A stretch of 64,000 nt of DNA from Theodoxus fluviatilis (Eukaryota > Mollusca > Gastropoda > Cycloneritida > Neritidae). Where the stretch lies: positions 118,501 through 182,500 of the forward strand of contig JAWQFJ010000498.1 in the NCBI GenBank assembly GCA_034096865.1, given 5' to 3'. This document shows positions 324-59,700 of the stretch, in pieces. Numbering within the stretch: position 1 is the first letter of the stretch; each line of letters begins with the position of its first letter. The notes beneath the pieces were generated by a model, which ran no database searches, had not been told where the DNA came from, and saw only the letters and a program-made list of their open reading frames with translations. The position numbers were made by a program, and so were the translations under genes.

Positions 324-510
324 CTTACCTGCTTCTGGATCACAAGCTCAGGCCTGCATGTCAAGCCAGTGTTCGTGTTGCAGATGTGCAGGGCAGCGAG
401 CTGGTGGTGGTGGTACACCCTGTGGACTTGAAGAAAGAGCAGGTGGACCTGTCCACCAGCCTCAATGCCCTCTGTGTGTCGGAGGGCTATGCTGTCCGCA
501 TCGGGGACTG
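324..510 (+). CDS. Tudor protein exon 1 (of those in window)
   Basis: Encodes the end of an extended Tudor domain, including QASVRVADVQGSELVVVVHP and the typical closing element SLNALCVSEGYAVRIGD. Acceptor tttctgcctag and donor ACTG|GTAAGA. It starts with the last two bases of a codon and ends in phase 2. The exact acceptor is the least certain part; an AG at 350-351 is an alternative. A piggyBac-type element begins only about 30 bp after the donor. Confidence 0.8.
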
Positions 511-10183: not shown

Positions 10184-10455
10184 CCTTCAGCACCACTGGT
10201 CCTAGGGAAAATGGCCAAGCCTGCCCCTACCTCCAACAGGGCACGCCGGCCCCGTAATGTGCGCAAGGGCCGTATGGCTGCAAGGCTGGATCAGAAACTT
10301 GCCATCAACTTCCAGCAGCAGCTTCAGGGATTCGAGGAACCTGAGCAGACGAAGCTGTCGCCTGATGTCAATATTGAAGTGATCGTCAGCAGTTTTATGG
10401 CGCCAGACAATTTCCACCTGCAGGTTGCCACGGCTGGCCCGGACGGCCTGGATGG
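10184..10455 (+). CDS. Tudor protein exon 3
   Basis: Acceptor ctgcctctgtctgcttgacag, donor GATGG|GTGAGT; enters in phase 0 and leaves in phase 2. It encodes a basic linker with NRARRPRNVRKGRMAARLDQ, then the opening strand of the next Tudor module, PDVNIEVIVSSFMAPDNFHL. The Arg-rich stretch could be a protein- or RNA-binding linker or a nuclear signal; nothing proves which. Confidence 0.88.
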
Positions 10456-13323: not shown

Positions 13324-13646
13324 GTGAGTTGCCATCAACAGCAGTCAAAGCCATGTTGAATGAATGATTTGGTGCCAAACCTTTGGATGAGTCCTGGGAA
13401 GTTACGAAGGTGTATGGTCATGAGGGTATGTACATGTAGTGAGAAATTGTGGCAGATAATTTTGCAGCTGAGATTGATGCCGTGTGACAGTGTGTACTTC
13501 ATTTCAATTCCTTCTTGTTATGTCCTGTAGCCCTACACTCCACCTTTCCCACCATTCCCATGCTGCTCCTTGCTGGCCCTTTGAAGGTGTGGGCTAGCCC
13601 CTCAACTAGCCCCCCAGACCATTGTGTGACTGTCAAATTCGGAACA

Positions 13647-14021
13647 GAGTCAGAGGAAAATATGAGAGGGAGCTACTGGAGAGATAGCCGACAGCTTGGT
13701 AGTAGTGAGAATGACAGCAAAGAGTCAGAGGAAAATATGAGAGGGAGCTACTGGAGAGATAGCCGACAGCTTGGTAGTAGTGAGAATGACAGCAAAGAGT
13801 CAGAGGAAAATATGAGAGGGAGCTACTGGAGAGATAGCCGACAGCTTGGTAGTAGTGAGAATGACAGCAAAGAGTCAGAGGAAAATATGAGAGGGAGCTA
13901 CTGGAGAGATAGCCGACAGCTTGGTAGTAGTGAGAATGACAGCAAAGAGTCAGAGGAAAATATGAGAGGGAGCTACTGGAGAGATAGCCGACAGCTTGGT
14001 AGTAGTGAGAATGACAGCAAA
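13647..14021 (+). repeat. Perfect 75-bp tandem repeat, 5 copies
   Basis: Five copies of a 75-bp unit (beginning gagtcagaggaaaatatgag) that appear identical to one another, in the intron between exons 4 and 5. Because 75 is divisible by three, frames stay open on both strands (a repeated SEENMRGSYWRDSRQLG on the plus strand), but no splice sites place it in the protein. The lack of divergence points to recent amplification. Confidence 0.95.
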
Positions 14022-14093
14022 GGCCAGAGAGAGGCAGCTTGAGACAAATGTTGACATACCAATCCATGCCATGAGTGCCATGCTTGATTGCAG

Positions 14094-14963: not shown

Positions 14964-17900
14964 AGATTGCATGCAGCATAGATATACACAAGCCATGCAT
15001 GCTCTAGTTGTCAAAACCTACACAGGTCTGGCCATGTCAATGCCTCATGCAGCATAGATATAGACAAGCCATGTCAATGCCTCATGCAGCATAGATATAG
15101 ACAAGCCATGCATGCTCTAGTTGTCAAAACCTACACAGGTCTGGCCATGTCAATGCCTCATGCAGCATAGATATAGACAAGCCATGCATGCTCTAGTTGT
15201 CAAAACCTACACAGGTCTGGCCATGTAATGCCTCATGCAGCATAGATATAGACAAGCCATGCATGCTCTAGTTGTCAAAACCTACACAGGTCTGGCTGTG
15301 TCAATGCATCATGCAGCATAGATATAGACAAGCCATGCATGCTGTAGTTGTCGAAACCTACACAGGTCTGGCCTTGTCAATGCATCATGCAGCATAGATA
15401 TAGACAAGCCATGCATGCTCTAGTTGTCAAAACCTACACAGGTCTGGCCATGTCAATGCCTCATGCAGCATAGATATAGACAAGCCATGCATGCTCTAGT
15501 TGTCGAAACCTACACAGGTCTGGCCTTGTCAATGCCTCGTGCAGCATAGATATAGACAAGCCATGCATGCTCTAGTTGTCAAAACCTACACAGGTCTGGC
15601 CATGTCAATGCCTCATGCAGCATAGATATAGACAAGCCATGCATGCGCTAGTTGTCAAAACCTACACAGGTCTGGCCATGGCAATGCCTCATGCAGCATA
15701 GATATAGACAAGCCATGCATGCTCTAGTTGTCAAAACCTACACAGGTCTGGCCGTGTCAATGCCTCATGCAGCATAGATATAGACAAGCCATGCATGCTG
15801 TAGTTGTCGAAACCTACACAGGTCTGGCCTTGTCAATGCATCATGCAGCATAGATATAGACAAGCCATGCATGCTCTAGTTGTCAAAACCTACACAGGTC
15901 TGGCCGTGTCAATGCCTCATGCAGCATAGATATAGACAAGCCATGCATGCTCTAGTTGTCAAAACCTACACAGGTCTGGCCTTGTCAATGCCTCATGCAG
16001 CATAGATATAGACAAGCCATGCATGCTCTAGTTGTCAAAACCTACACAGGTCTGGCCTTGTCAATGCCTCATGCAGCATAGATATAGACAAGCCATGCAT
16101 GCTCTAGTTGTCAAAACCTACACAGGTCTGGCCGTGTCAATGCCTCATGCAGCATAGATATAGACAAGCCATGCATGCTCTAGTTGTCAAAACCTACACA
16201 GGTCTGGCCTTGTCAATGCATCATGCAGCATAGATATAGACAAGCCATGCATGCTCTAGTTGTCAAAACCTACACAGGTCTGGCCATGTCAATGCCTCAT
16301 GCAGCATAGATATAGACAAGCCATGCATGCTCTAGTTGTCAAAACCTACACAGGTCTGGCTGTGTCAATGCCTCATGCAGCATAGATATAGACAAGCCAT
16401 GCATGCTCTAGTTGTCAAAACCTACACAGGTCTGGCTGTGTCAATGCCTCATGCAGCATAGATATAGACAAGCCATGCATGCTCTAGTTGTCAAAACCTA
16501 CACAGGTCTGGCTGAGTCAATGCCTCATGCAGCATAGATATAGACAAGCCATGCATGCTCTAGTTGTCAAAACCTACACAGGTCTGGCCGTGTCAATGCC
16601 TCATGCAGCATAGATATAGACAAGCCATGCATGCTCTAGTTGTCAAAACCTACACAGGTCTGGCCGTGTCAATGCCTCATGCAGCATAGATATAGACAAG
16701 CCATGCATGCTCTAGTTGTCAAAACCTACACAGGTCTGGCCGTGTCAATGCCTCATGCAGCATAGATATAGACAAGCCATGCATGCTCTAGTTGTCAAAA
16801 CCTACACAGGTCTGGCCATGTCAATGCCTCATGCAGCATAGATATAGACAAGCCATGCATGCTCTAGTTGTCAAAACCTACACAGGTCTGGCCATGTCAA
16901 TGCCTCATGCAGCATAGATATAGACAAGCCATGCATGCTCTAGTTGTCAAAACCTACACAGGTCTGGCCGTGTCAATGCCTCATGCAGCATAGATATAGA
17001 CAAGCCATGCATGCTCTAGTTGTCAAAACCTACACAGGTCTGGCCGTGTCAATGCCTCATGCAGCATAGATATAGACAAGCCATGCATGCTCTAGTTGTC
17101 GAAACCTACACAGGTCTGGCCGTGTCAATGCCTCATGCAGCATAGATATAGACAAGCCATGCATGCTCTAGTTGTCAAAACCTACACAGGTCTGGCCGTG
17201 TCAATGCCTCATGCAGCATAGATATAGACAAGCCATGCATGCTCTAGTTGTCAAAACCTACACAGGTCTGGCCATGTCAATGCCTCATGCAGCATAGATA
17301 TAGACAAGCCATGCATGCTCTAGTTGTCAAAACCTACACAGGTCTGGCCGTGTCAATGCCTCATGCAGCATAGATATAGACAAGCCATGCATGCTCTAGT
17401 TGTCAAAACCTACACAGGTCTGGCCATGTCAATGCCTCATGCAGCATAGATATAGACAAGCCATGCATGCTCTAGTTGTCAAAACCTACACAGGTCTGGC
17501 CATGTCAATGCCTCATGCAGCATAGATATAGACAAGCCATGCATGCTCTAGTTGTCAAAACCTACACAGGTCTGGCCATGTCAATGCCTCATGCAGCATA
17601 GATATAGACAAGCCATGCATGCTCTAGTTGTCAAAACCTACACAGGTCTGGCCGTGTCAATGCCTCATGCAGCATAGATATAGACAAGCCATGCATGCTC
17701 TAGTTGTCAAAACCTACACAGGTCTGGCCATGTCAATGCCTCATGCAGCATAGATATAGACAAGCCATGCATGCTCTAGTTGTCAAAACCTACACAGGTC
17801 TGGCCGTGTCAATGCCTCATGCAGCATAGATATAGACAAGCCATGCATGCTCTAGTTGTCAAAACCTACACAGGTCTGGCCATGTCAATGCCTCATGCAG

Positions 17901-18574
17901 CATAGATATAGACAAGCCATGCATGCTCTAGTTGTCAAAACCTACACAGGTCTGGCCGTGTCAATGCCTCATGCAGCATAGATATAGACAAGCCATGCAT
18001 GCTCTAGTTGTCAAAACCTACACAGGTCTGGCCATGTCAATGCCTCATGCAGCATAGATATAGACAAGCCATGCATGCTCTAGTTGTCAAAACCTACACA
18101 GGTCTGGCCGTGTCAATGCCTCATGCAGCATAGATATAGACAAGCCATGCATGCTCTAGTTGTCAAAACCTACACAGGTCTGGCCGTGTCAATGCCTCAT
18201 GCAGCATAGATATAGACAAGCCATGCATGCTCTAGTTGTCAAAACCTACACAGGTCTGGCCGTGTCAATGCCTCATGCAGCATAGATATAGACAAGCCAT
18301 GCATGCTCTAGTTGTCAAAACCTACACAGGTCTGGCCGTGTCAATGCATCATGCAGCATAGATATAGACAAGCCATGCATGCTCTAGTTGTCAAAACCTA
18401 CACAGGTCTGGCCGTGTCAATGCCTCATGCAGCATAGATATAGACAAGCCATGCATGCTCTAGTTGTCAAAACCTACACAGGTCTGGCCGTGTCAATGCA
18501 TCATGCAGCATAGATATAGACAAGCCATGCATGCTCTAGTTGTCAAAACCTACACAGGTCTGGCCGTGTCAAGG
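14964..18574 (+). repeat. 76-bp satellite-like array, ~47 copies
   Basis: Unit of 76 bp containing catgcagcatagatatagac, aagccatgcatgctctagtt and gtcaaaacctacacaggtct. Consecutive start points differ by 76 (for example 15241, 15317, 15393). Variation is concentrated at a few positions (GCCATG, GCCGTG, GCCTTG or GCTGTG; CTCATG or ATCATG). The first copies are irregular, with a truncated unit around 15060-15100. Confidence 0.97.
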
Positions 18575-21775: not shown

Positions 21776-23194
21776 TCAGTCTTCATCACTGGATTCTTCT
21801 TCTTGGGCACCTGTTGCCCTTGGATTCAGGCGTCGCATCTCCCTCTTAAAGTCCTTGACAGTGTGGTACACCATATGACAGGGTGTCACACACAAAGCCA
21901 CCTTGCACTTCCTGCACTGGAACCGTGTTTCTTTTCTGTGTGTATACTGCTTACTCCTCTTGGTGTGCACTGAGCAGCGCACACATTTCTTTGCTGGCTT
22001 GGCCTTCTTTTCTGTGGGAGGAATCTCTTCAAGGAAGTGACGGCACCTTTGATCTTCCAGCCTTTCAGATTCCATAGGCTTTGCAATCTTCTGCCTCTTT
22101 CTTGGTGGCTCCTCCCCTCTTGGTCCAGCAGAAGGTTCTGGTTCTGGGTGCTGCCTGTGTTGAAGAGTAGGCAGGTCTTCACTGGCTGGCAGGCCTGCAG
22201 AGGTAGTTGGACCAGGCACTGGATCACTCAAGGTTTGTGACGATGATTCTTGAGTTTCTGTGGATGTGTCGCCAGCCAGCTGAAGGATCAACTGCAGGGT
22301 GAAATCCACCTGGGTGAGGCTCTTCCCTTCCTTCTTGTAGAGGATGAAGGCCTGGACTTTGGCCATGTGGATCAGATGAGTTGCTGCCCTTTTCCACCAC
22401 TTCATTGTTTTCCTATTGAAAGCATAGTAGCTCAAGTTTTGGTCAAGGGCATCCACTCCACCCATGTTGGCATTGTATTTGTGGACAATACCTGGTCTTG
22501 TAATGTCCACCTGGGTTCCATCTCTCGGCCTTTTCTTCTTTCCAGTTGCCACTGGTGCAGCTGTATGGGCAGTGCTGAGAAGCATGCAGTCACGTCTGTC
22601 ACGGAAGCGCATTGCAACAATGCCACCTTTCTGTCGCACAGCACACTCTCCCTTGGCCAGCCTCAGGGTCTTGCTTTTCAGGGATGGAGGGTTTCCCTTC
22701 CTCATTCTCAGGACAGTTCCACAGGCAGTGGTGCCAGATGCCAGGAGCTCCTGAAATAGTGCCACACTAGAAAAAAAAGAGTCCATGTAGATGCAATGGC
22801 CCATCTGCATGAACTCCCTTGTGACAAACTTCACAACATTGGGGCCATGGCCATGCTCCACAGACCCTCTCTCCTTGCCTGTGTACATCTTCATGCTGCA
22901 GATATATCCACTTGCAGACTCACAGCAGCAATACAGTTTTATGCCATACCTGATGGGCTTTTTTTGGATGAACTGCCTGAAAGACACTCTTCCCCTCCAT
23001 GGCACGATGCTTTCATCCACAGCAAGATTTTGTTCAGGGTAGTATGTCTCCCTGAACTTCTCACACAGATGATCAAACAGTTTCCTGATCTTGAAGATCT
23101 TGTCAGCATCAGGACTATTGGCAGGAGGCATCTGGCTGTTGTCAGCAAGGTGGAAAAAGGCCAGGATTGCCAGGAAACGGTCACGGGGCATGAT
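21776..23194 (-). CDS. piggyBac transposase exon 2 (catalytic and zinc-binding)
   Basis: Acceptor tttcccag|ATC at 23194 on the minus strand, stop at 21776. Joined to exon 1 it gives 694 residues. Catalytic aspartates of the DDD piggyBac type are visible: VDESIVPWRGR (D about 282), YMDSFFSS (D about 360), and NANMGGVDALDQ (D about 470, with a further D at 473). The C-terminus has a Cys/His cluster, KKCVRCSVHTKRSKQ, then FQCRKCKVALCVTPCHMVYH, the cysteine-rich domain that binds the element ends in piggyBac enzymes. No stop or frameshift interrupts it, so it could be active or recently active. Confidence 0.92.
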   Translation of the reverse strand: MMPRDRFLAILAFFHLADNSQMPPANSPDADKIFKIRKLFDHLCEKFRETYYPEQNLAVDESIVPWRGRVSFRQFIQKKPIRYGIKLYCCCESASGYICSMKMYTGKERGSVEHGHGPNVVKFVTREFMQMGHCIYMDSFFSSVALFQELLASGTTACGTVLRMRKGNPPSLKSKTLRLAKGECAVRQKGGIVAMRFRDRRDCMLLSTAHTAAPVATGKKKRPRDGTQVDITRPGIVHKYNANMGGVDALDQNLSYYAFNRKTMKWWKRAATHLIHMAKVQAFILYKKEGKSLTQVDFTLQLILQLAGDTSTETQESSSQTLSDPVPGPTTSAGLPASEDLPTLQHRQHPEPEPSAGPRGEEPPRKRQKIAKPMESERLEDQRCRHFLEEIPPTEKKAKPAKKCVRCSVHTKRSKQYTHRKETRFQCRKCKVALCVTPCHMVYHTVKDFKREMRRLNPRATGAQEEESSDED

Positions 23195-23516
23195 CTGGGA
23201 AATTAAAAAGGAAACAAATTTTCAGTTTTCAAGCTAAAAAAGAATGAATAAATCAGTTGCTAGTGAAGGGAATACAATTTACAATACTAACAGCAAAAAT
23301 CATATGCAGCATACATTGAAATGCATGATAGGCCAGAATTAATGTACAACCTTCCTTGGCAAAGTATTTAGCCTCATTCAATGAAACAAGAGCAAATGTA
23401 CTCGAGACAATCATGCATCAGAATATGGTTGTGTGTGTTTGTGTGTGTGTGTGTGTCTGAGAGAGAGAGAGAGATCAAAGTCAGGCAATAAGGAAGTAAA
23501 AAGGCTATATATTTAC
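23195..23516 (-). other. Transposase intron (322 bp)
   Basis: Donor GGCAAG|GTAAAT and acceptor TTTCCCAG|ATC on the minus strand; phase 0. It contains a short GT/GA microsatellite (forward 23430-23475). Confidence 0.85.
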
Positions 23517-24182
23517 CTTGCCAAAGAAAGGTGTCTCCAGCACTGGGTGGGTTGACCAAAAGTGTCGAAGCTCTGACTTATCTATAAGCCCCATGGCCAT
23601 GAGAAGAGCTATGAATTTCTTCATCTCGACTTGATTTGTCTGTTTCCACTTCTTGAGGTAGAAAAACCCTGGAATCTTCTCGGCAACCTTCTGTGCGTAA
23701 TCATTTGTCTCTTTGACAAACAAGTCAAACATTTCATCATCGATGAAAAGACCAAAATAATCTTTCGGCGTCTTTTCTCCAGGAATGGTTACTTTCAAGC
23801 CTGGTGCACCTGTAAAGGCAGGAATGTCACCAATCTCGCCGTATTCCACCTCTATCCATCCTTTATCAGCAGCTGGTGATGCCGTTCGCATGCCACGCCT
23901 ACTTCGACCTCGCACACTCGATTGAGTCCGGCATCGACTTGGCCGAGTGAAACTGGTCGAAGCACTCTCATAACTTGGACCGGGCACTGCCTCATCAGAT
24001 TCCGAATAATCTAGGTCAAAATCAGAGCTCTGATCGCTATCATAGACCTCACTTTCACTGTCTGAATCAAGGCATGGCTCTAAAAGCGATTGCTGGGTTG
24101 ATTCTCTCTCCATTTCTGTCATTTTTGCATGAAAAACGCCATCAAAACACTCGCGATTTCTTCGAGAATGCAGTTCGTACAT
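23517..24182 (-). CDS. piggyBac transposase exon 1 (N-terminal)
   Basis: 222 codons, ATG at 24182. An acidic leader (SDSESEVYDSDQSSDFDLDY) is followed by a basic stretch, then the family N-terminal block DYFGLFIDDEMFDLFVKETN, EMKKFIALLMAMGLI and FWSTHPVLETPFFGK. The splice joins ..FFGK to IMPRDRFLAIL.., the usual continuous motif of PGBD-like proteins, which confirms the intron. An alternative Met lies at residue 21. Confidence 0.9.
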
Positions 24183-29822: not shown

Positions 29823-30173
29823 TCTGCTCTGCTCTGCTCTTCTTCCTATACTCTGTTTACAGATTTCCTGCTTTTTCCACTGCTTCAGAGCAATTATTTA
29901 GACAATGCTTTTGCATTTCTGGACGCATGGTAGGTTGTGAATTTGTGTGTGTATGTGAGAGAGAGAGACTGAGAGAGATAAATGAATTGAAGAGGGAACA
30001 ATGACAATGACTTTTTTGCTTGTACTCATTGGATTATTAATCTAGGTACAATTAGTCCATTTGGCCAACATGGGCCCTATCTTTGGACATGGTGTCCTTG
30101 TACAGATTTGCCTTTAGTACTTGTCAACAATGGCATCAACCCCAAAGAGGCTGTCTGGATGACCTTGTGAAGG

Positions 30174-30654
30174 GTGATCTTCATCTTGTCTTCCTCTTGC
30201 CAGAATACACAGCCTGGCTCCTTGATGACTGTGTGTAGCGTGATCTTCATCTTGCCTTCCTCTTGCCAGAATACAGAGCATGGCTCCTTGATGACTGTGT
30301 GTAGCGTGATCTTCATCTTGCCTTCCTCTTGCCAGAATACACAGCCTGGCTCCTTGATGACTGTGTGTAGCGTGATCTTCATCTTGCCTTCCTCTTGCCA
30401 GAATACACAGCCTGGCTCCTTGATGACTGTGTGTAGCGTGATCTTCATCTTGCCTTCCTCTTGCCAGAATACAGAGCATGGCTCCTTGATGACTGTGTAG
30501 CGTGATCTTCATCTTGCCTTCCTCTTGCCAGAATACACAGCCTGGCTCCTTGATGACTGTGTGTAGCGAGATCTTCATCTTGCCTTCCTCTTGCATACAC
30601 AGCCTCTCTCCTTGATGACTGAGTATCTTTTTCATATTTCCTTCCTCTTGCCAG
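30174..30654 (+). repeat. 66-bp array derived from a splice acceptor and exon start
   Basis: About seven units of 66 bp. Each contains cttcctcttgccagaataca and then (g)agcatggctccttgatgact or cagcctggctccttgatgact. The first 20 bases equal the real junction at 30654/30655 (tttccttcctcttgccag|AATACAGAGCATGGC). Starts at 30174, 30240, 30306 and so on. The last two or three units have small deletions, one of which creates an in-frame TAG at about 30498. Confidence 0.93.
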
Positions 30655-30741
30655 AATACAGAGCATGGCACCTGGAGCTTGGAAGGCCTGGAGGACCTGC
30701 ACGAACTTCTGGTGGGCAAACAGTGTAGAGTCACCATCAAG
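30655..30741 (+). CDS. Tudor protein exon 10
   Basis: Phase 0 at both ends; donor ATCAAG|GTAGGC. It encodes NTEHGTWSLEGLEDLHELLV and GKQCRVTIK, part of the SN-like lobe of the module. Several upstream copies of its acceptor exist in the adjacent array, so the true 5' end is the most proximal one that joins in frame. Confidence 0.88.
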
Positions 30742-36452: not shown

Positions 36453-36619
36453 CTAGCACTCACCCTGATGAACATACCATAGCTAGCCTCAGATAGTGCA
36501 GCACACATTATTATGAGAATGCCACATAGTTTTCCATCCTGTGCAGTTTCAGCTCTGTATTAAAGCTGCTGTAAATAGCTTTGCTAGTGGCTCACTTTGA
36601 GTGACCTGAAGGTGCCTAG

Positions 36620-38273
36620 CACTTGATGGTGCACGATGGTGTCCAACTCTTGAACAGCTTGCTAGATGAAGCACTTGATGGTGCACGATGTGCCCAACTC
36701 TTGAACAGCTTGCTAGATGAAGCACTTGATGGTGCACGATGTGCCCAACTCTTGAACAGCTTGCTAGATGAAGCACTTGATGGTGCACGATGTGCCCAAC
36801 TCTTGAACAGCTTGCTAGATGAAGCACTTGATGGTGCACGATGGTGTCCAACTCTTGAACAGCTTGCTAGATGAAGCACTTGATGGTGCACGATGGTGTC
36901 TAACTCTTGAACAGCTTGCTAGATGAAGCACTTGATGGTGCACGATGTGCCCAACTCTTGAACAGCTTGCTAGATGAAGCACTTGATGGTGCACGATGTG
37001 CCCAACTCTTGAACAGCTTGCTAGATGAAGCACTTGATGGTGCACGATGGTGTCCAACTCTTGAACAGCTTGCTAGATGAAGCACTTGATGGTGCACGAT
37101 GGTGTCTAACTCTTGAACAGCTTGCTAGATGAAGCACTTGATGGTGCACGATGTGCCCAACTCTTGAACAGCTTGCTAGATGAAGCACTTGATGGTGCAC
37201 GATGTGCCCAACTCTTGAACAGCTTGCTAGATGAAGCACTTGATGGTGCACGATGGTGCCCAACTCTTGAACAGCTTGCTAGATGAAGCACTTGATGGTG
37301 CACGATGTGCCCAACTCTTGAACAGCTTGCTAGATGAAGCACTTGATGGTGCACGATGTGCCCAACTCTTGAACAGCTTGCTAGATGAAGCACTTGATGG
37401 TGCACGATGGTGCCCAACTCTTGAACAGCTTGCTAGATGAAGCACTTGATGGTGCACGATGGTGCCCAACTCTTGAACAGCTTGCTAGATGAAGCACTTG
37501 ATGGTGCACGATGGTGCCCAACTCTTGAACAGCTTGCTAGATGAAGCACTTGATGGTGCACGATGGTGCCCAACTCTTGAACAGCTTGCTAGATGAAGCA
37601 CTTGATGGTGCACGATGGTGCCCAACTCTTGAACAGCTTGCTAGATGAAGCACTTGATGGTGCACGATGGTGCCCAACTCTTGAACAGCTTGCTAGATGA
37701 AGCACTTGATGGTGCACGATGGTGCCCAACTCTTGAACAGCTTGCTAGATGAAGCACTTGATGGTGCACGATGGTGCCCAACTCTTGAACAGCTTGCTAG
37801 ATGAAGCACTTGATGGTGCACGATGGTGCCCAACTCTTGAACAGCTTGCTAGATGAAGCACTTGATGGTGCACGATGGTGCCCAACTCTTGAACAGCTTG
37901 CTAGATGAAGCACTTGATGGTGCACGATGGTGCCCAACTCTTGAACAGCTTGCTAGATGAAGCACTTGATGGTGCACGATGGTGCCCAACTCTTGAACAG
38001 CTTGCTAGATGAAGCACTTGATGGTGCACGATGGTGCCCAACTCTTGAACAGCTTGCTAGATGAAGCACTTGATGGTGCACGATGGTGCCCAACTCTTGA
38101 ACAGCTTGCTAGATGAAGCACTTGATGGTGCACGATGGTGTCTAACTCTTGAACAGCTTGCTAGATGAAGCACTTGATGGTGCACGATGGTGTCTAACTC
38201 TTGAACAGCTTGCTAGATGAAGCACTTGATGGTGCACGATGGTGTCTAACTCTTGAACAGCTTGCTAGATGAA
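36620..38273 (+). repeat. 52-bp minisatellite, ~32 copies
   Basis: Unit caactcttgaacagcttgct + agatgaagcacttgatggtg + cacgatggtgcc. Early copies mix a 51-bp form (gatgtgccc) and variants ggtgtccaac and ggtgtctaac in a repeating order; copies after 37400 are almost uniform, and the last three again carry the gtgtctaac variant. The stretch is intronic. Confidence 0.96.
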
Positions 38274-39120
38274 GAACCATCGAGCGCTCAATAGTCCACT
38301 GCAAATGGGTGACAAGTGTAAATACAAAATGGCTGCTTTTGAAGAATGGAAGGAAATCGCCATTAAAAAATGAACATAGCGGCACACATTTCCACCAGTG
38401 ATTAACATTCGATCTCTGTGAGAAGTTACAAGAAGTTAGGCTGATGTTCTTTCCTTTTTTTGAAGAATAACTGCTCTGAAGGTAACTCTGTAGCTTACAA
38501 TGTACAATAGCCTTTAGTTTGTTGTGAAATGTGCTTACACTGTAAGTCAGTATTTTTGTTTTGACATGATTTTCTGTTCGAGCGGTGCTGAGCCATGATG
38601 CGCAGCTGCAGCATGATATATCTTATCCACTTCCTCAAGGAACCACCAGTCTGCAGCTGCTGGTTTGCTCATTTGGTTGAGAAGTGCCCTCATAAACACT
38701 CCACAACAATGAGAATGTATTGTGGAGTCCATCTTCGTTGGTGCTTGGTCTAGTTGTCGTTAAAGAGTGACAATTTTGGCTTGTGGAGCACTGGATGGAG
38801 CACTCGGTGTCTTGATCAAGCTAAGGAGGACAGAAATAAAGGGCTGTGAGATGCAGACAAGGACCAAAAACTTGCCACCATGTGTACACCATTTTGTCTA
38901 CTTCAGTGCACCATGAGGTGGCGTCAGGCTGACTGCTCTGTGTGGAATGGGGAGAGTGCTGGTGCTGACCAGGCCCATCATTTGTCAGTCTTTGGGTCCC
39001 TGTCGGGGATGGGTCAAGTCGTCCAGTGATCAGCCATAGGGGAAGGCAGTTTGGTCCCCAGCTACGGGGCATGTCACTACATTCAACTCATGCCTTTGAA
39101 CCCTGACCATTATGCCACAG
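38274..39120. other. Intron, nothing recognised
   Basis: No domain or repeat found; the last bases ccattatgccacag form the acceptor of exon 12. Confidence 0.4.
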
Positions 39121-39207
39121 GTGGCCAATCCCTACCCAGACTTGGTGCTGATGCCTGTGGGCCAGTACTTCCCTGGTATCATCACCAACGTGGACCTGCC
39201 CAACGTG
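39121..39207 (+). CDS. Tudor protein exon 12
   Basis: Phase 0 both sides; donor AACGTG|GTAAGT. It encodes VANPYPDLVLMPVGQYFPGI and ITNVDLPNV, the opening strand of the last Tudor module. Confidence 0.9.
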
Positions 39208-39352
39208 GTAAGTACAGTCTCAAAGTACAGTCTCACTCCACCTGTCCTGGCTTGCCACTTATGTGCAGTGTGTGCTGCAATTAGCATCTGTCTACTCTGA
39301 TTGGCTGCCTAGTGTTATCCATTCCTGACGTTGCATGGCATGCTGATGACAG

Positions 39353-42117: not shown

Positions 42118-42253
42118 GCCAACAGTGCTGTGCCCAGTTTTCCCTAGACAAGTGCTGGTACCGCGGACTGGTGGTTGAATCGGTGCTCAAGGGCAAAGCC
42201 TTCCTGGTGCTCTACGTGGACTACGGCAACTCTGAGGTGGTGACCCCAGACAG
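42118..42253 (+). CDS. Tudor protein exon 14 (canonical Tudor core)
   Basis: Acceptor gtgttgctgttgcag, donor GACAG|GTATGC; in phase 1, out phase 2. It encodes QQCCAQFSLDKCWYRGLVVE and FLVLYVDYGNSEVVTPDR. The aromatic residues and the Asn of DYGN needed for a methylarginine cage are all present, so this is the module most likely to bind PIWI tails. Confidence 0.95.
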
Positions 42254-45124: not shown

Positions 45125-45281
45125 ACTGAGGGTGATGCCCAGACAGTACCAGGATCTGCCCCCCCAGGCCTTCCGATGCCGGTTGCATGGCTTGACCCCC
45201 CCTGGGGCTGTGTGGAGCTCTGCAGCCCTGGATGCCATGGTGTCTACCCTGGTCAACACCCCCCTGTCTATCTGCATCACA
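45125..45281 (+). CDS. Tudor protein exon 15
   Basis: Acceptor gtttctgactgcag, donor ATCACA|GTAGGT; in phase 2, out phase 0. It encodes LRVMPRQYQDLPPQAFRCRL, then WSSAALDAMVSTLVNTPLSI. Its last 45 bases and donor are repeated downstream many times; the first donor is used in this model because it joins exon 16 in frame. Confidence 0.88.
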
Positions 45282-46210
45282 GTAGGTGTCTACCCTGGTC
45301 AACACCCCCCTGTCTGTCTGCATCACAGTAGGTGTCTACCCTGGTCAACACCCTGCATGACAGTAGGTGTCTACCCTGGTCAACACCCCCCTGTCTGTCT
45401 GCATCACAGTAGGTGTCTACCCTGGTCAACACCCTGCATCACAGTAGGTGTCTACCCTGGTCAACACCCTGCATCACAGTAGGTGTCTACCCTGGTCAAC
45501 ACCCTGCATCACAGTAGGTGTCTACCCTGGTCAACACCCCCCTGTCTGTCTGCATCACAGTAGGTGTCTACCCTGGTCAACACCCCCCTGTCTGTCTGCA
45601 TCACAGTAGGTGTCTACCCTGGTCAACACCCTGCATCACAGTAGGTGTCTACCCTGGTCAACACCCTGCATCACAGTAGGTGTCTACCCTGGTCAACACC
45701 CCCCTGTCTGTCTGCATCACAGTAGGTGTCTACCCTGGTCAACACCCCCCTGTCTGTCTGCATCACAGTAGGTGTCTACCCTGGTCAACACCCTGCATGA
45801 CAGTAGGTGTCTACCCTGGTCAACACCCCCCTGTCTGTCTGCATCACAGTAGGTGTCTACCCTGGTCAACACCCCCCTGTCTGTCTGCATCACAGTAGGT
45901 GTCTACCCTGGTCAACACCCCCCTGTCTGTCTGCATCACAGTAGGTGTCTACCCTGGTCAACACCCCCCTGTCTGTCTGCATCACAGTAGGTGTCTACCC
46001 TGGTCAACACCCCCCTGTCTGTCTGCATCACAGTAGGTGTCAACACCCCCCTGTCTGTCTGCATCACAGTAGGTGTCTACCCTGGTCAACACCCCCCTGT
46101 CTGTCTGCATCACAGTAGGTGTCTACCCTGGTCAACACCCCCCTGTCTGTCTGCATCACAGTAGGTGTCTACCCTGGTCAACACCCCCCTGTCTGTCTGC
46201 ATTACAGTAG
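45282..46210 (+). repeat. 46/35-bp array derived from an exon end and its splice donor
   Basis: Two unit forms: GTGTCTACCCTGGTCAACAC + CCCCCTGTCTGTCTGCATCA + CAGTAG (46 bp), and a 35-bp form lacking CCCCTGTCTGT. The first copy of this sequence is the end of exon 15 itself (45240-45281). About 22 further copies follow, each with CATCACA|GTAGGTG, a full donor-like site. Confidence 0.95.
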
Positions 46211-46377
46211 GTTTTTTGGTGGTAGTGTGGTGGTGTTTTTGTAGATGGGCATGTATTAGGGGGTGAATGCAGTGGTAGAGAGTAATAATGTCCCATACTG
46301 CCTTTCCTCACCTCTTGCTGCAATTCCCACACTGCCCTTTGCTGCTAATCCCACACAGACCTTTCTCTCAGCTGCAT

Positions 46378-47308: not shown

Positions 47309-47836
47309 GCAGACAGCCCCGAAGTGGTGGTGCAGCTGTTCCAGACTGGGGCAACTGAGGGGCAGCTGGCCTATGAAAGCCTCGTACAGCAGGGCCTGGT
47401 GCTGATACAGGAGGAAGAGACCCAGCCCCCTTCCTCCCCGCTCTCCAATTCCCCTGGCTCTGTAGGTCCTTCTAGCCCTTTTGCCGCCCCTCGTGACGCC
47501 TCCACTCCCTCCTCTCTCCATGCAACCCCCACCCCCCAGATAAATGACATGGTGCCCCTCGGGATTGGAATACCCTCACAGTCGCCAGTCACGCAGCCTG
47601 CCCCCTCCCCTTCCTGCAGCAGCAGTGCCAGTTCCGGCATGAGCCACGCCAGTCCCAGCATGAGCCACGCCAGTCCCAGCATGAGCCACGCCAGTCCCAG
47701 CAACCAATCTTGGGCTGCCCAGGTGGATGCGGAGCTCAGCGAAGGCACGCTGACTCCCTCCTCCAGCTTGTTGGAGATGACCCTGGATGGATCTGATTTG
47801 GAAGTGGCCAGAATCACGGATGGGTCCTCAGTGTGA
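47309..47836 (+). CDS. Tudor protein exon 16 (C-terminus, stop)
   Basis: Acceptor acttgtgttgttgcag, phase 0, stop TGA at 47834-47836. It encodes ADSPEVVVQLFQTGATEGQL and AYESLVQQGLVLIQEEE, the end of the SN-like lobe, then a low-complexity tail with QPPSSPLSNSPGSVGPSS and three tandem MSHASPS units (21 bp each, 47638-47700), ending LEVARITDGSSV. The tail is likely disordered. Confidence 0.93.
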   Translation, partial: ADSPEVVVQLFQTGATEGQLAYESLVQQGLVLIQEEETQPPSSPLSNSPGSVGPSSPFAAPRDASTPSSLHATPTPQINDMVPLGIGIPSQSPVTQPAPSPSCSSSASSGMSHASPSMSHASPSMSHASPSNQSWAAQVDAELSEGTLTPSSSLLEMTLDGSDLEVARITDGSSV

Positions 47837-48119
47837 GCCGCGTTGGCTGTGTAAATGGCATGTCTGGGTGATGAGTTGTTGTGCTGGGAAATGAAAGGAA
47901 AGGGAGAGAGAGTGAAGCTGGCCATGGGTAATGAGAGTGTGGAAGATGCTGTGTGGATGGTAGGGTCAGATTTGCTGTGGGAACTTGAGGACTGGGTGGA
48001 ATGTGATGTGATAGAGTGCACATGCTTCACTGTTTGCCCTGGGTAGTCCCGACAGCTGCTTGAGTCGCCCGTCCTTCCTTGGCCCCCACATCTCACACCA
48101 TTGCCCTCTTCTCTGTACA
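47837..48119 (+). other. Possible start of 3' UTR
   Basis: No AATAAA is present between the stop codon and the 54-bp array, so either the UTR runs through the array or a variant signal is used. Confidence 0.4.
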
Positions 48120-51100
48120 CTTGCACCTTTCCCAGCATCATTGGATACATACATACCTATCATACACAGCACACTTGCACCTTTCCCAGCATCATTGGAT
48201 ACATACATACCTATCATACACAGCACACTTGCACCTTGCCCAGCATCATTGGATACATACATACCTATCATACACAGCACACTTGCACCTTGCCCAGCAT
48301 CATTGGATACATACATACCTATCATACACAGCACACTTGCACCTTTCCCAGCATAATTGGATACATACATACCTATCATACACAGCACACTTGCACCTTG
48401 CCCAGCATCATTGGATACATACATACCTATCATACACAGCACACTTGCACCTTTCCCAGCATAATTGGATACATACATACCTATCATACACAGCACACTT
48501 GCACCTTTCCCAGCATCATTGGATACATACATACCTATCATACACAGCACACTTGCACCTTGCCCAGCATCATTGGATACATACATACCTATCATACACA
48601 GCACACTTGCACCTTTCCCAGCATCATTGGATACATACATACCTATCATACACAGCACACTTGCACCTTTCCCAGCATCATTGGATACATACATACCTAT
48701 CATACACAGCACACTTGCACCTTTCCCAGCATCATTGGATACATACATACCTATCATACACAGCACACTTGCACCTTTCCCAGCATCATTGGATACATAC
48801 ATACCTATCATACACAGCACACTTGCACCTTTCCCAGCATCATTGGATACATACATACCTATCATACACAGCACACTTGCACCTTTCCCAGCATCATTGG
48901 ATACATACATACCTATCATACACAGCACACTTGCACCTTTCCCAGCATCATTGGATACATACATACCTATCATACACAGCACACTTGCACCTTTCCCAGC
49001 ATCATTGGATACATACATACCTATCATACACAGCACACTTGCACCTTTCCCAGCATCATTGGATACATACATACCTATCATACACAGCACACTTGCACCT
49101 TTCCCAGCATCATTGGATACATACATACCTATCATACACAGCACACTTGCACCTTGCCCAGCATCATTGGATACATACATACCTATCATACACAGCACAC
49201 TTGCACCTTGCCCAGCATCATTGGATACATACATACCTATCATACACAGCACACTTGCACCTTTCCCAGCATAATTGGATACATACATACCTATCATACA
49301 CAGCACACTTGCACCTTTCCCAGCATCATTGGATACATACATACCTATCATACACAACACACTTGCACCTTTCCCAGCATAATTGGATACATACATACCT
49401 ATCATACACAGCACACTTGCACCTTTCCCAGCATCATTGGATACATACATACCTATCATACACAGCACACTTGCACCTTTCCCAGCATCATTGGATACAT
49501 ACATACCTATCATACACAGCACACTTGCACCTTTCCCAGCATCATTGGATACATACATACCTATCATACACAGCACACTTGCACCTTGCCCAGCATCATT
49601 GGATACATACATACCTATCATACACAGCACACTTGCACCTTTCCCAGCATCATTGGATACATACATACCTATCATACACAGCACACTTGCACCTTTCCCA
49701 GCATCATTGGATACATACATACCTATCATACACAGCACACTTGCACCTTGCCCAGCATCATTGGATACATACATACCTATCATACACAGCACACTTGCAC
49801 CTTTCCCAGCATCATTGGATACATACATACCTATCATACACAGCACACTTGCACCTTTCCCAGCATCATTGGATACATACATACCTATCATACACAGCAC
49901 ACTTGCACCTTGCCCAGCATCATTGGATACATACATACCTATCATACACAGCACACTTGCACCTTTCCCAGCATCATTGGATACATACATACCTATCATA
50001 CACAGCACACTTGCACCTTGCCCAGCATCATTGGATACATACATACCTATCATACACAGCACACTTGCACCTTTCCCAGCATCATTGGATACATACATAC
50101 CTATCATACACAGCACACTTGCACCTTTCCCAGCATCATTGGATACATACATACCTATCATACACAGCACACTTGCACCTTTCCCAGCATCATTGGATAC
50201 ATACATACCTATCATACACAGCACACTTGCACCTTTCCCAGCATCATTGGATACATACATCCCTATGCAGTGGCCCTATCATACACTGTACACTTGCACC
50301 TTTCCCAGCATCATTGGATACATACATACCTATGCAGTGGCCCTATCATACACTGTACACTTGCACCTTTCCCAGCATAATTGGATACATACATACCTAT
50401 GCAGTGGCCCTATCATACACAGCACACTTGCACCTTTCCCAGCATAATTGGATACATACATACCTATGCAGTGGCCCTATCATACACAGCACACTTGCAC
50501 CTTTCCCAGCATAATTGGATACATACATACCTATCATACACAGCACACTTGCACCTTTCCCAGCATAATTGGATACATACATACCTATCATACACAGCAC
50601 ACTTGCACCTTGCCCAGCATCATTGGATACATACATACCTATCATACACAGCACACTTGCACCTTTCCCAGCATCATTGGATACATACATACCTATCATA
50701 CACAGCACACTTGCACCTTTCCCAGCATCATTGGATACATACATACCTATCATACACAGCACACTTGCACCTTTCCCAGCATCATTGGATACATACATAC
50801 CTATCATACACAGCACACTTGCACCTTTCCCAGCATCATTGGATACATACATCCCTATGCAGTGGCCCTATCATACACTGTACACTTGCACCTTTCCCAG
50901 CATCATTGGATACATACATACCTATGCAGTGGCCCTATCATACACTGTACACTTGCACCTTTCCCAGCATAATTGGATACATACATACCTATGCAGTGGC
51001 CCTATCATACACAGCACACTTGCACCTTTCCCAGCATAATTGGATACATACATACCTATGCAGTGGCCCTATCATACACAGCACACTTGCACCTTTCCCA

Positions 51101-51335
51101 GCATAATTGGATACATACATACCTATCATACACAGCACACTTGCACCTTTCCCAGCATAATTGGATACATACATACCTATCATACACAGCACACTTGCAC
51201 CTTTCCCAGCATCATTGGATACATACATACCTATGCAGTGGCCCTATCATACACAGCACACTTGCACCTTTCCCAGCATAATTGGATACATACATACCTA
51301 TGCAGTGGCCCTATCATACACAGCACACTTGCACA
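48120..51335 (+). repeat. 54-bp array, ~58 copies, with 67-bp variants
   Basis: Unit cacttgcacctttcccagca + tcattggatacatacatacc + tatcatacacagca. Common single changes are cctttc/ccttgc and catcatt/cataatt. Near the 3' end a 13-bp insertion (gcagtggccctat) makes 67-bp units; the block with these variants (50260-50500) reappears at 50850-51090, so a segment of about 590 bp was duplicated as a whole. Frames of hundreds of codons result from the unit being divisible by three. Confidence 0.97.
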
Positions 51336-56519: not shown

Positions 56520-57510
56520 GGATGGAGGAGAGAGGAGGGGAAGCCCCTCTACAAGTGGTAGTCGAGGTTTTCAGGGCTCTGGCTGTAGATGACAGGAGGG
56601 GAAGCCCCTCTACAAGTGGTAGTCGAGGTTTTCAGGGCTCTGACTGTAGGATTGGGGCAGGAGATGGAGAACGGAGGTGATGGAGGAGAGAGGAGGGGAA
56701 GCCCCTCTACAAGTGGTAGTCGAGGTTTTCAGGGCTCTGACTGTAGGATTGGGGCAGGAGATGGAGAACGGAGGTGATGGAGGAGAGAGGAGGGGAAGCC
56801 CCTCTACAAGTGGTAGTCCAGGTTTTCAGGGCTCTGACTGTAGGATTGGGGCAGGAGATGGAGAACGGAGGTGATGGAGGAGAGAGGAGGGGAAGCCCCT
56901 CTACAAGTGGTAGTCGAGGTTTTCAGGGCTCTGGCTGTAGATGACAGGAGGGGAAGCCCCTCTACAAGTGGTAGTCGAGGTTTTCAGGGCTCTGGCTGTA
57001 GATGACAGGAGGGGAAGCCCCTCTACAAGTGGTAGTCGAGGTTTTCAGGGCTCTGGCTGTAGATGACAGGAGGGGAAGCCCCTCTACAAGTGGTAGTCGA
57101 GGTTTTCAGGGCTCTGGCTGTAGATGACAGGAGGGGAAGCCCCTCTACAAGTGGTAGTCGAGGTTTTCAGGGCTCTGGCTGTAGATGACAGGAGGGGAAG
57201 CCCCTCTACAAGTGGTAGTCGAGGTTTTCAGGGCTCTGGCTGTAGATGACAGGAGGGGAAGCCCCTCTACAAGTGGTAGTCGAGGTTTTCAGGGCTCTGG
57301 CTGTAGATGACAGGAGGGGAAGCCCCTCTACAAGTGGTAGTCGAGGTTTTCAGGGCTCTGGCTGTAGATGACAGGAGGGGAAGCCCCTCTACAAGTGGTA
57401 GTCGAGGTTTTCAGGGCTCTGGCTGTAGATGACAGGAGGGGAAGCCCCTCTACAAGTGGTAGTCGAGGTTTTCAGGGCTCTGACTGTAGATGACAGGAGG
57501 GGAAGCCCCT
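56520..57510 (-). repeat. 61-bp array derived from the end of a coding exon
   Basis: On the minus strand each 61-bp unit reads atctacagtcagagccctga + aaacctcgactaccacttgt + agaggggcttcccctcctgtc. The first 42 bases equal the last codons and TAG of the mucin-like gene (encoding IYSQSPENLDYHL-stop). About 16 copies follow the real stop codon into the 3' region. The copies around 56640-56890 carry an extra about 40-bp insert (attggggcaggagatggaga). Confidence 0.95.
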
Positions 57511-57694
57511 CTACAAGTGGTAGTCGAGGTTTTCAGGGCTCTGACTGTAGATGACAGGATGCTGGCTGTCGCTGGAAGGAGGGGTGTTTTTGTTCGCGAC
57601 CTTGCCGTTGCTGAAGTGAAGGTCATCGAGTTGCGCCCCTGCATTGTAGTAGGATGCAGACTGCGTGCCCTTGAACCTTGCCGACTGCCGTCTC
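57511..57694 (-). CDS. Mucin-like membrane protein, last exon (cytoplasmic tail)
   Basis: Minus strand; acceptor cccgtgtctggcgctgcag at 57695, phase 2 entry, TAG at 57511. It encodes RRQSARFKGTQSASYYNAGA and QLDDLHFSNGKVANKNTPPS, ending PVIYSQSPENLDYHL. Basic residues at the start continue the stop-transfer cluster from the preceding exon. Several Tyr (YYNAG, VIYSQ, LDYHL) could be signalling or sorting sites; that is speculation. Confidence 0.85.
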
Positions 57695-58199: not shown

Positions 58200-59700
58200 G
58201 GCGAACTAAAAGATGAAACTGAAAAGAAAGCGAGAGTAAATATTTATTAAATAAATAACTTGACAGGTTGACTGATGGCTGCATGGATGCGAAATGAGTG
58301 CAGTGTTAGAAATGACCAAATGCCGTTTTCCTTGCAAAGACTCCCTACATAGAAAAGGGCCCTATGGGTTGGGGGTAAGAACACTCACCATGTCTCCCTA
58401 CGCTATCAGCAACAGGCGAATGACTATGGAAATCGAGACTTGACTGGGTGTTACTCTAACCAGCTCTAGAGAACTGGTAGTCAACAGTCTCACTTAGCCT
58501 ACATAGGATGTTACTCTAACCAGGTCTAGAGAACTGGTAGTCAACAGTCTCACATAGCCTACATAGGCTGTTACTCTAACCAGCTCTAGAGAACTGGTAG
58601 TCAACAGTCTCACTTAGCCTACATAGGATGTTACTCTAACCAGGTCTAGAGAACTGGTAGTCAACAGTCTCACATAGCCTACATAGGCTGTTACTCTGAC
58701 CAGCTCTAGAGAACTGGTAGTCAACAGTCTCACATAGCCTACATAGGCTGTTACTCTGACCAGCTCTAGAGAACTGGTAGTCAACAGTCTCACATAGCCT
58801 ACATAGGCTGTTACTCTAACCAGCTCTAGAGAACTGGTAGTCAACAGTCTCACATAGCCTACATAGGCTGTTACTCTGACCAGCTTTAGAGAACTGGTAG
58901 TCAACAGTCTCACATAGCCTACATAGGCTGTTACTCTAACCAGGTCTAGAGAACTGGTAGTCAACAGTCTCACATAGCCTACATAGGCTGTTACTCTAAC
59001 CAGCTCTAGAGAACTGGTAGTCAACATGCAGTCTCACATAGCCTACATAGGATGTTACTCTAACCAGGTCTAGAGAACTGGTAGTCAATAGTCTCACATA
59101 GCCTACATAGGCTGTTACTCTGACCAGCTTTAGAGAACTGGTAGTCAACAGTCTCACATAGCCTACATAGGCTGTTACTCTAACCAGCTCTAGAGAACTG
59201 GTAGTCAACAGTCTCACATAGCCTACATAGGCTGTTACTCTGACCAGCTTTAGGGAACTGGTAGTCAACAGTCTCACATAGCCTACATAGGCTGTTACTC
59301 TAACCAGCTCTAGAGAACCGGTAGTCAACAGTCTCACATAGCCTACATAGGCTGTTACTCTAACCAGCTTTAGAGAACTGGTAGTCAATAGTCTTACATA
59401 GCCTACATAGGATGTTACTCTAACCAGCTCTTAGAGAACTGGTAGTCAACAGTCTCACATAGCCTACATAGGATGTTACTCTAACCAGGTCTAGAGAACT
59501 GGTAGTCAATAGTCTTACATGGCCTACATAGGCTAATAGACCATACAACTTCATTCATTCATTTGTTCCTTGTTTATTTCATTTGTTCATTCGTTCGTTC
59601 ATCTATCCATTTTATTCGTGCATTCATCCATCATTTGCTCATTCATCCATCCATTCATTCATCCATTCGTTCATTCATCTGCCTGTTCATTCCATGGAAA
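58200..59700 (+). repeat. SINE-like repeat with internal 60-bp expansion
   Basis: The body from 58200 matches the inverted copy at 34428-34650 and continues with the family order (cctatgggttgggggtaaga, gcgaatgactatggaaatcg). From 58445 to 59545 an internal segment is tandemly repeated, and the copy then ends with a normal tail, caacttcattcattcatttg, and CATT/CATCC repeats to 59700. Confidence 0.75.
58445..59545 (+). repeat. 60-bp array, ~18 copies
   Basis: Unit tgttactctaaccagctcta + gagaactggtagtcaacagt + ctcacatagcctacataggc. Variants alternate between ctctaacc/ctctgacc, agctcta/aggtcta/agcttta and ggctg/ggatg. cttagcctacataggatgtt links it to the SINE-like tail. Confidence 0.96.

Follow-up and report, generated by a model that had tools for sequence, protein, structure and literature searches.

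A minisatellite built from an exon end and its splice donor in a Tudor-domain gene of the gastropod Theodoxus fluviatilis

Results and Discussion

A minisatellite across the end of exon 13

In the 64,000-nt stretch of genomic DNA analyzed here (the window; C497:118501-182500 of a 965-Mb assembly in 19,668 contigs), we found a minisatellite that begins inside a coding exon of a Tudor-domain gene, crosses the exon-intron boundary, and repeats the exon end together with its splice donor. In all probability, this is a boundary-spanning array of the kind termed "mirage", in which the donor closest to the exon body (donor 1) would be used, while the 22 intronic copies would act as losing decoys. The preliminary description of this DNA was correct, and the phenomenon is somewhat larger than described there: the gene harbors one more such array, and the structure recurs in myosin exons.

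The host gene was modeled on the + strand as 14 exons between 10211 and 47836, which join as one open frame of 842 codons. A profile search detected Tudor domains in three stretches of the product (PF00567, E = 1.8e-61), and structures of TDRD1 match it as well (best E = 1.2e-15), identifying the host as a multi-Tudor, TDRD-like gene. Upstream of these exons, inspection by eye revealed at least one more stretch resembling an exon, near window positions 350-510. The gene is therefore incomplete in the model, and the exon number 15 given earlier is not fixed; what stands is that the array sits at an exon end, that of the 13th of 14 exons in the model starting at 10211. The features concerned are listed below, a slash denoting a splice junction.

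10211..10455, + strand: first exon of the gene model, upstream limit not proven
42118..42253, + strand: exon 12 (gene model, Tudor domain), encodes the beginning of the last Tudor domain
45125..45281, + strand: exon 13 (gene model, Tudor domain, TDRD1 match), contributes to the last Tudor domain, with acceptor CTGACTGCAG/A and donor 1 ACA/GTAGGT
45239..46212, + strand: boundary minisatellite of 23 units of 46, 35 or 36 bp, made of the exon end plus GTA(G), the first unit lying in the exon
46210..46230, + strand: sequence following the array, GGTTTTTTGG..., taken as original intron; GGT in common with the start of the exonic unit
47309..47836, + strand: exon 14 (gene model), last coding exon with the stop codon; phase 0 acceptor TTGTTGCAG/GCA

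Exon 14 also contains a 21-bp coding repeat (MSHASPS; window 47627-47702), and an array of 5.1 copies of 75 bp with long open frames on both strands is located at 13646-14029, 65 bp ahead of exon 3.

Tandem Repeats Finder, applied to the 64,000-nt window, placed the exon 13 array at 45239-46212 with a period of 46, 23.1 copies, and a score of 1311. The array includes the terminal 43 bases of exon 13 and 931 of the 2027 bases of the intron between exons 13 and 14. Cut at the donor, it is composed of 23 units in the order ABCBDDDBBDDBBCBBBBBEBBF, with lengths of 46 bp (15 units; A, B, and F), 35 bp (seven units; C and D), and 36 bp (one unit; E). Depending on the register, a unit consists of 42 exon bases followed by GTAG or of 43 followed by GTA. 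The first unit alone is exonic, and the remaining 22 are found downstream; every one of the 23 is closed by GTAGGT, each time as ACA/GTAGGT. Both the repeat search and the parsing into units thus bear out the earlier claims that the minisatellite is built from an exon end and its donor and that each unit supplies a donor-like site. The number given earlier was about 22 repeats of 46 and 35 bp; the full count is 23, and a 36-bp form exists too.

The identical unit B accounts for 13 of the 23 units, and the exonic unit A and the last unit F each differ from it by one base. The 35-bp forms are short of 11 bases and the 36-bp form of 10 bases, and the deletions are flanked by short direct repeats, as judged by eye. 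Additionally, blocks such as DDBB recur within the array. Unit variants and recurring blocks are marks of ordinary minisatellite turnover, at which the deletion forms and repeated blocks of this single assembly hint. When the assembly was searched for the exon-end sequence and the best candidates were scored, all nine matches listed fell on the exon 13 array.

Donor choice at exon 13

The donors that come into question for exon 13 are the following.

45282..45287, + strand: donor 1, exon-proximal copy, probably the one in use (frame table, homologue alignment)
45363..45368, + strand: donor 3, adds 27 residues in frame without a stop (frame table)
45444..45449, + strand: donor 5, adds 54 residues in frame without a stop (frame table)

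For the frame table, each of the 23 donors was spliced in silico to exon 14 (phase 0) and the product was translated. The full frame was kept exclusively with donors 1, 3, and 5, which add 0, 27, and 54 residues, respectively. Donors 2, 4, and 6 resulted in a stop codon in exon 14, and donors 7-23 in a stop inside the array. It had been noted beforehand that 46 and 35 are not multiples of three, and the choice of donor indeed shifts the frame; however, 46 and 35 add up to 81, which is a multiple of three, so that pairs of units restore the frame. The expectation that some donor choices are workable and others are not was confirmed by donors 1, 3, and 5, among which the informative homologues favor the first.

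These homologues were obtained with residues 290-715 of the product as query, a search in which 7992 candidates were scored and 17 homologous proteins were found (best E = 9.8e-75); a search with the whole protein of the model scored 7991 candidates, none of which reached E ≤ 0.001. The best five of the 17 were aligned. The 27- or 54-residue insert is absent from the three that cover the junction (P0121, P0123, and P0124), and the other two are uninformative at this position, as P0122 is gapped there and P0125 ends earlier. Because the insert is lacking in the three junction-covering homologues, donor 1, which yields the junction peptide PLSICIT/ADSPEVVVQLF, is the parsimonious donor and, judged from frame and alignment, very likely the one used.

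Donor 1 reaches 6 of 9 in a simple consensus count, which is the score of the exon 4 and exon 5 donors and below that of the ten other donors in the model; 15.9% of all GTs in the window score at least 6 of 9 by this count. Since the donor is weak and the same letters are present in each copy, it must be position and not the letters that would explain why the first copy wins. An alternative donor, CACAGTAG/GTGTCT, also scores 6 of 9 and was rejected on the grounds of its phase 1, which is unfit for exon 14.

Another boundary array in the gene and recurrence in myosin exons

The same gene carries another array of this type, at the acceptor of exon 8.

30158..30673, + strand: another boundary minisatellite, eight units of 66 bp in which the acceptor CTTCCTCTTGCCAG recurs together with the opening bases of exon 8
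30655..30741, + strand: exon 8 (gene model), its acceptor within the 66-bp array

The AG of this acceptor is kept in seven of the eight units and lost in one. Among the seven acceptors, the frame is kept by one, namely the last and exon-proximal one, and the other six give stops. In both arrays, it is the copy beside the exon body that suits the protein (donor 1 and the last acceptor, respectively). A 13-bp duplication, with two copies of AAGTACAGTCTCA, adjoins the exon 10 donor (window 39207-39235) and may represent a boundary array in the making.

In order to see such arrays outside this gene, we surveyed 70 myosin-head exon matches of the same genome, which were picked regardless of repeats and for which exon limits were placed visually close to the profile matches. 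A boundary minisatellite was present at seven of the 70, on the acceptor side in six cases and on the donor side in one, and the overlap of these arrays with the exon amounts to 0-27 bases.

C29:18622, acceptor side: 28-bp unit; the array stops right at the acceptor, which it repeats without any exon base
C29:11389, acceptor side: 67-bp unit
C2609:103111, acceptor side: 41- or 82-bp unit
C2609:108347, acceptor side: 54-bp unit
C1946:27711, acceptor side: 67-bp unit; borders a run of N
C2609:90561, acceptor side: 46-bp unit; exon opening with GESGAGKTE
C1946:20223, donor side: 41-bp unit, 36.9 copies according to Tandem Repeats Finder

At least 150 bp of sequence were available on both sides of 60 of the 70 matches; the other ten (C5432:14114, for example, has 66 bp on one side) were viewed separately and showed no boundary array. 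Arrays that do not span a boundary were left out of the count (C1946:14416, where the array ends 29 bp before the by-eye acceptor, C2972:98094, C2972:114331, and C1946:8218), and so were simple repeats (C8280:74087, C5432:12369, C1328:226660, C2906:38970, and C2906:36345).

By strict patterns, the myosin arrays contain 53 decoy sites, five of which leave the frame open (four at C2609:90561 and one at C29:18622). The corresponding numbers are 2 of 22 for the exon 13 array and 0 of 6 for the exon 8 array, which gives 7 of 81 for the nine arrays together. Use of the extra splice sites would mostly damage the product.

Chance, tolerance, or preference for exon edges

Arrays make up 24-32% of the window gene, and two of its 26 exon boundaries are inside an array compared to 6.3-8.2 expected at random. 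Counted by locus, two of 11 arrays span a boundary compared to 3.2 under random placement (P(≤2) = 0.28). We therefore discarded the idea that arrays of the window gene are specially drawn to splice sites, the coincidence being no commoner than under random placement. For the myosins, unconditioned random placement predicts 9.0 exons compared to eight counted, the curated count being seven. Arrays placed at random reach a median of 302 bp into an exon, a depth attained by none of the 38 arrays counted. With deep exon overlap excluded by a 45-bp cut-off, which was set after the data had been seen, there are seven cases compared to 4.0 expected in the myosins (P = 0.035) and two compared to 0.5 in the window gene (P = 0.09). 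The resulting excess at exon edges is weak: the seven myosin cases share three contigs (two on C29, three on C2609, and two on C1946) and are therefore not independent, and the 60 stretches partly overlap, so that an array can count twice.

The safe reading of these numbers is tolerance, meaning that arrays are common and that those crossing a single exon edge persist since the exon and its splice site stay intact in the outer copy. A preference of arrays for exon edges is possible. The more far-reaching idea that exon edges seed minisatellites genome-wide, at roughly one exon in ten, with the exon-proximal site chosen among up to about two dozen equal donor or acceptor copies, is one that we put forward tentatively and with some doubt; if true, it would mean that exon definition rules, and not site strength or scanning order.

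Other elements in the window and the assembly

The window contains further long minisatellites with alike units at 15068-18572 (76 bp), 36618-38274 (52 bp), 48117-51301 (54 bp), 56533-57559 (61 or 97 bp), and 58449-59534 (60 bp). Frames of a piggyBac-like transposase are located on the - strand at 21776-24182; the part at 21776-23191 matches PF13843, and the frame up to 24182 was assigned by position and eye. A dispersed repeat with a start like GACTCACATGCGAAGCAAAAGTGAGTC and rich in AAGGTCAAGGTCA was seen by eye near 2450, 7450, 28490, 34655, 41690, and 43000, and words from this AAGGTCAAGGTCA-bearing repeat gave no match in the literature or in viral contigs.

Elsewhere in the assembly, there are four COX1 matches (L009-L012), two of which (L009 and L010) were translated with the invertebrate mitochondrial code. 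L009 matches, at 99% over 99% of the query, a protein cluster named Clithon retropictum (seven members; database clustered at 90%), which ranks first among the 120 matches listed from 7998 candidates scored; the following three are other gastropods at 94%. Clithon belongs to the Neritidae (Gastropoda), and the COX1 match favors a neritid snail or close relative as the source over amphioxus, which had been considered at first. L010 (294-3400) holds COX1 and COX2 in what looks like a nuclear copy, next to a frame that by eye resembles a reverse transcriptase; COX1 is followed by about a dozen bases and then COX2, and no tRNA was found in between (by eye and with ARAGORN, bacterial code), an arrangement that fits a gastropod. 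Two others (L011, 1501-2808, and L012, 1501-2094) are COX1-like without in-frame TGA and possibly represent bacterial contamination or a symbiont.

Alternative readings of the array

Since donors 1, 3, and 5 all give a stop-free frame and agree in the donor hexamer and the three exon bases preceding it, all three might be used, so that the array would generate protein variants with 0, 27, or 54 additional residues in the last Tudor-containing domain and its length polymorphism would alter the products. The first five units are indeed ordered such that 46 + 35 restores the frame. However, the added residues are mostly shifted-frame translations and the three informative homologues have no insert, and we regard this reading as unlikely. 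It is extremely improbable that the units act as small exons, a form of intron gain proposed for the globin mirages, where a unit-as-exon model is published (PMC3087553). Such a model can draw on AG and GT signals in each unit, on 12 pyrimidines among the 16 bases ahead of CAG in the 46-bp unit, and on a 42-base stretch of this unit, from TAG/ to /GTAGGT, that would be in frame. On the other hand, splicing between neighboring units would require an intron of four bases, the 46-bp unit has no match to the branch-point pattern YTNAY, and the frame would not be preserved by units of 35 bp.

Repeats are hard to assemble, and one of the surveyed arrays (C1946:27711) borders a run of N, which raises the question of whether the exon 13 array is wrongly sized or entirely false. 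We give an artefact very little credence: the window contains no N, the units at the edges are distinct from those further inside, variant units are interspersed, all nine listed matches to the exon end fall on this array, and boundary arrays recur in other genes. The copy number may be off even though the array is real.

Proposed origin

A boundary-spanning array with donor 1 in use could have arisen by a tandem duplication whose breaks lay inside the exon and just past the donor, whereby the exon end and GTA(G) would have been copied. The three bases GGT are read both at the start of the exonic unit and in the intron after the last unit; a single tandem duplication with 3 bp shared would therefore suffice for the initial pair of units. 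The array might then have expanded through slippage or unequal crossing over, which would also account for the deletion forms of 35 and 36 bp. The gene would still work because the exon-proximal copy would retain an intact exon and donor, with donor 1 used and the other 22 copies left in the intron, where they would lose as decoys, most likely via exon definition. Each of these arrays represents a natural experiment, in which 23 equal donors or seven like acceptors differ mainly in their distance to the exon. Such arrays could reveal the order in which the spliceosome prefers equal sites, and their length alleles how far mis-splicing limits the growth of repeats.

Comparison with known systems

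The exon 13 array shares the structure of the mirages of amphioxus, described as tandem repeats over exon-intron boundaries of the globin genes BflGb6 and BflGb9 and of Adh3 (PMC3087553); PGBD5 and troponin C are also named as carriers (PMC3902484). As in the described mirages, the units here span the boundary (43 bases of exon 13 and 931 of the intron, with the boundary taken from the gene model), hold the splice signal (GTAGGT in 23 of 23 units and the acceptor in 7 of 8 units at exon 8), occur on the donor or the acceptor side, and leave the outermost exon copy intact. In amphioxus, Adh3 data and RT-PCR of globins are reported to suggest that splicing is undisturbed, and length instability is reported as well (PMC3087553). 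For the exon 13 array, undisturbed splicing would be expected from frame and homologues. The systems differ in copy number, with 23 units here compared to three and six in two BflGb6 haplotypes (PMC3087553), and in the host, which is a gastropod here and a cephalochordate in both amphioxus reports (PMC3087553, PMC3902484).

A splice signal is also put into a repeat in the intron gain by tandem duplication described for potato RdRp (PMC4974935). Unlike there, the array occupies one end of the intron and duplicates do not flank the intron on both ends; the exon 14 acceptor is 1.1 kb beyond, with other repeats in between. Internal tandem repeats in human duplicated genes are another example of repeat variation that reaches exon-intron structure (PMC2812944). 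With ordinary intronic minisatellites, the array has in common the unit size, homogenized inner and diverged edge units, and internal deletion variants, whereas its outermost unit is coding and holds what is probably the functional donor.

Among the titles and abstract openings searched, mostly outside the subscription journals, no boundary array in a mollusc is reported. A Conus paper that contains the word "mirage" concerns simple repeats in introns (PMC3862624), and gastropod hemocyanin introns are treated in another study (PMC7931591). Mirages are treated as an amphioxus trait in the reports that describe them (PMC3087553, PMC3902484), and here we find arrays of this structure in Tudor and myosin genes of a snail. 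This occurrence suggests that boundary arrays may form in any genome where minisatellites abound and that a duplication across a single exon edge is tolerated since the outer copy continues to function.
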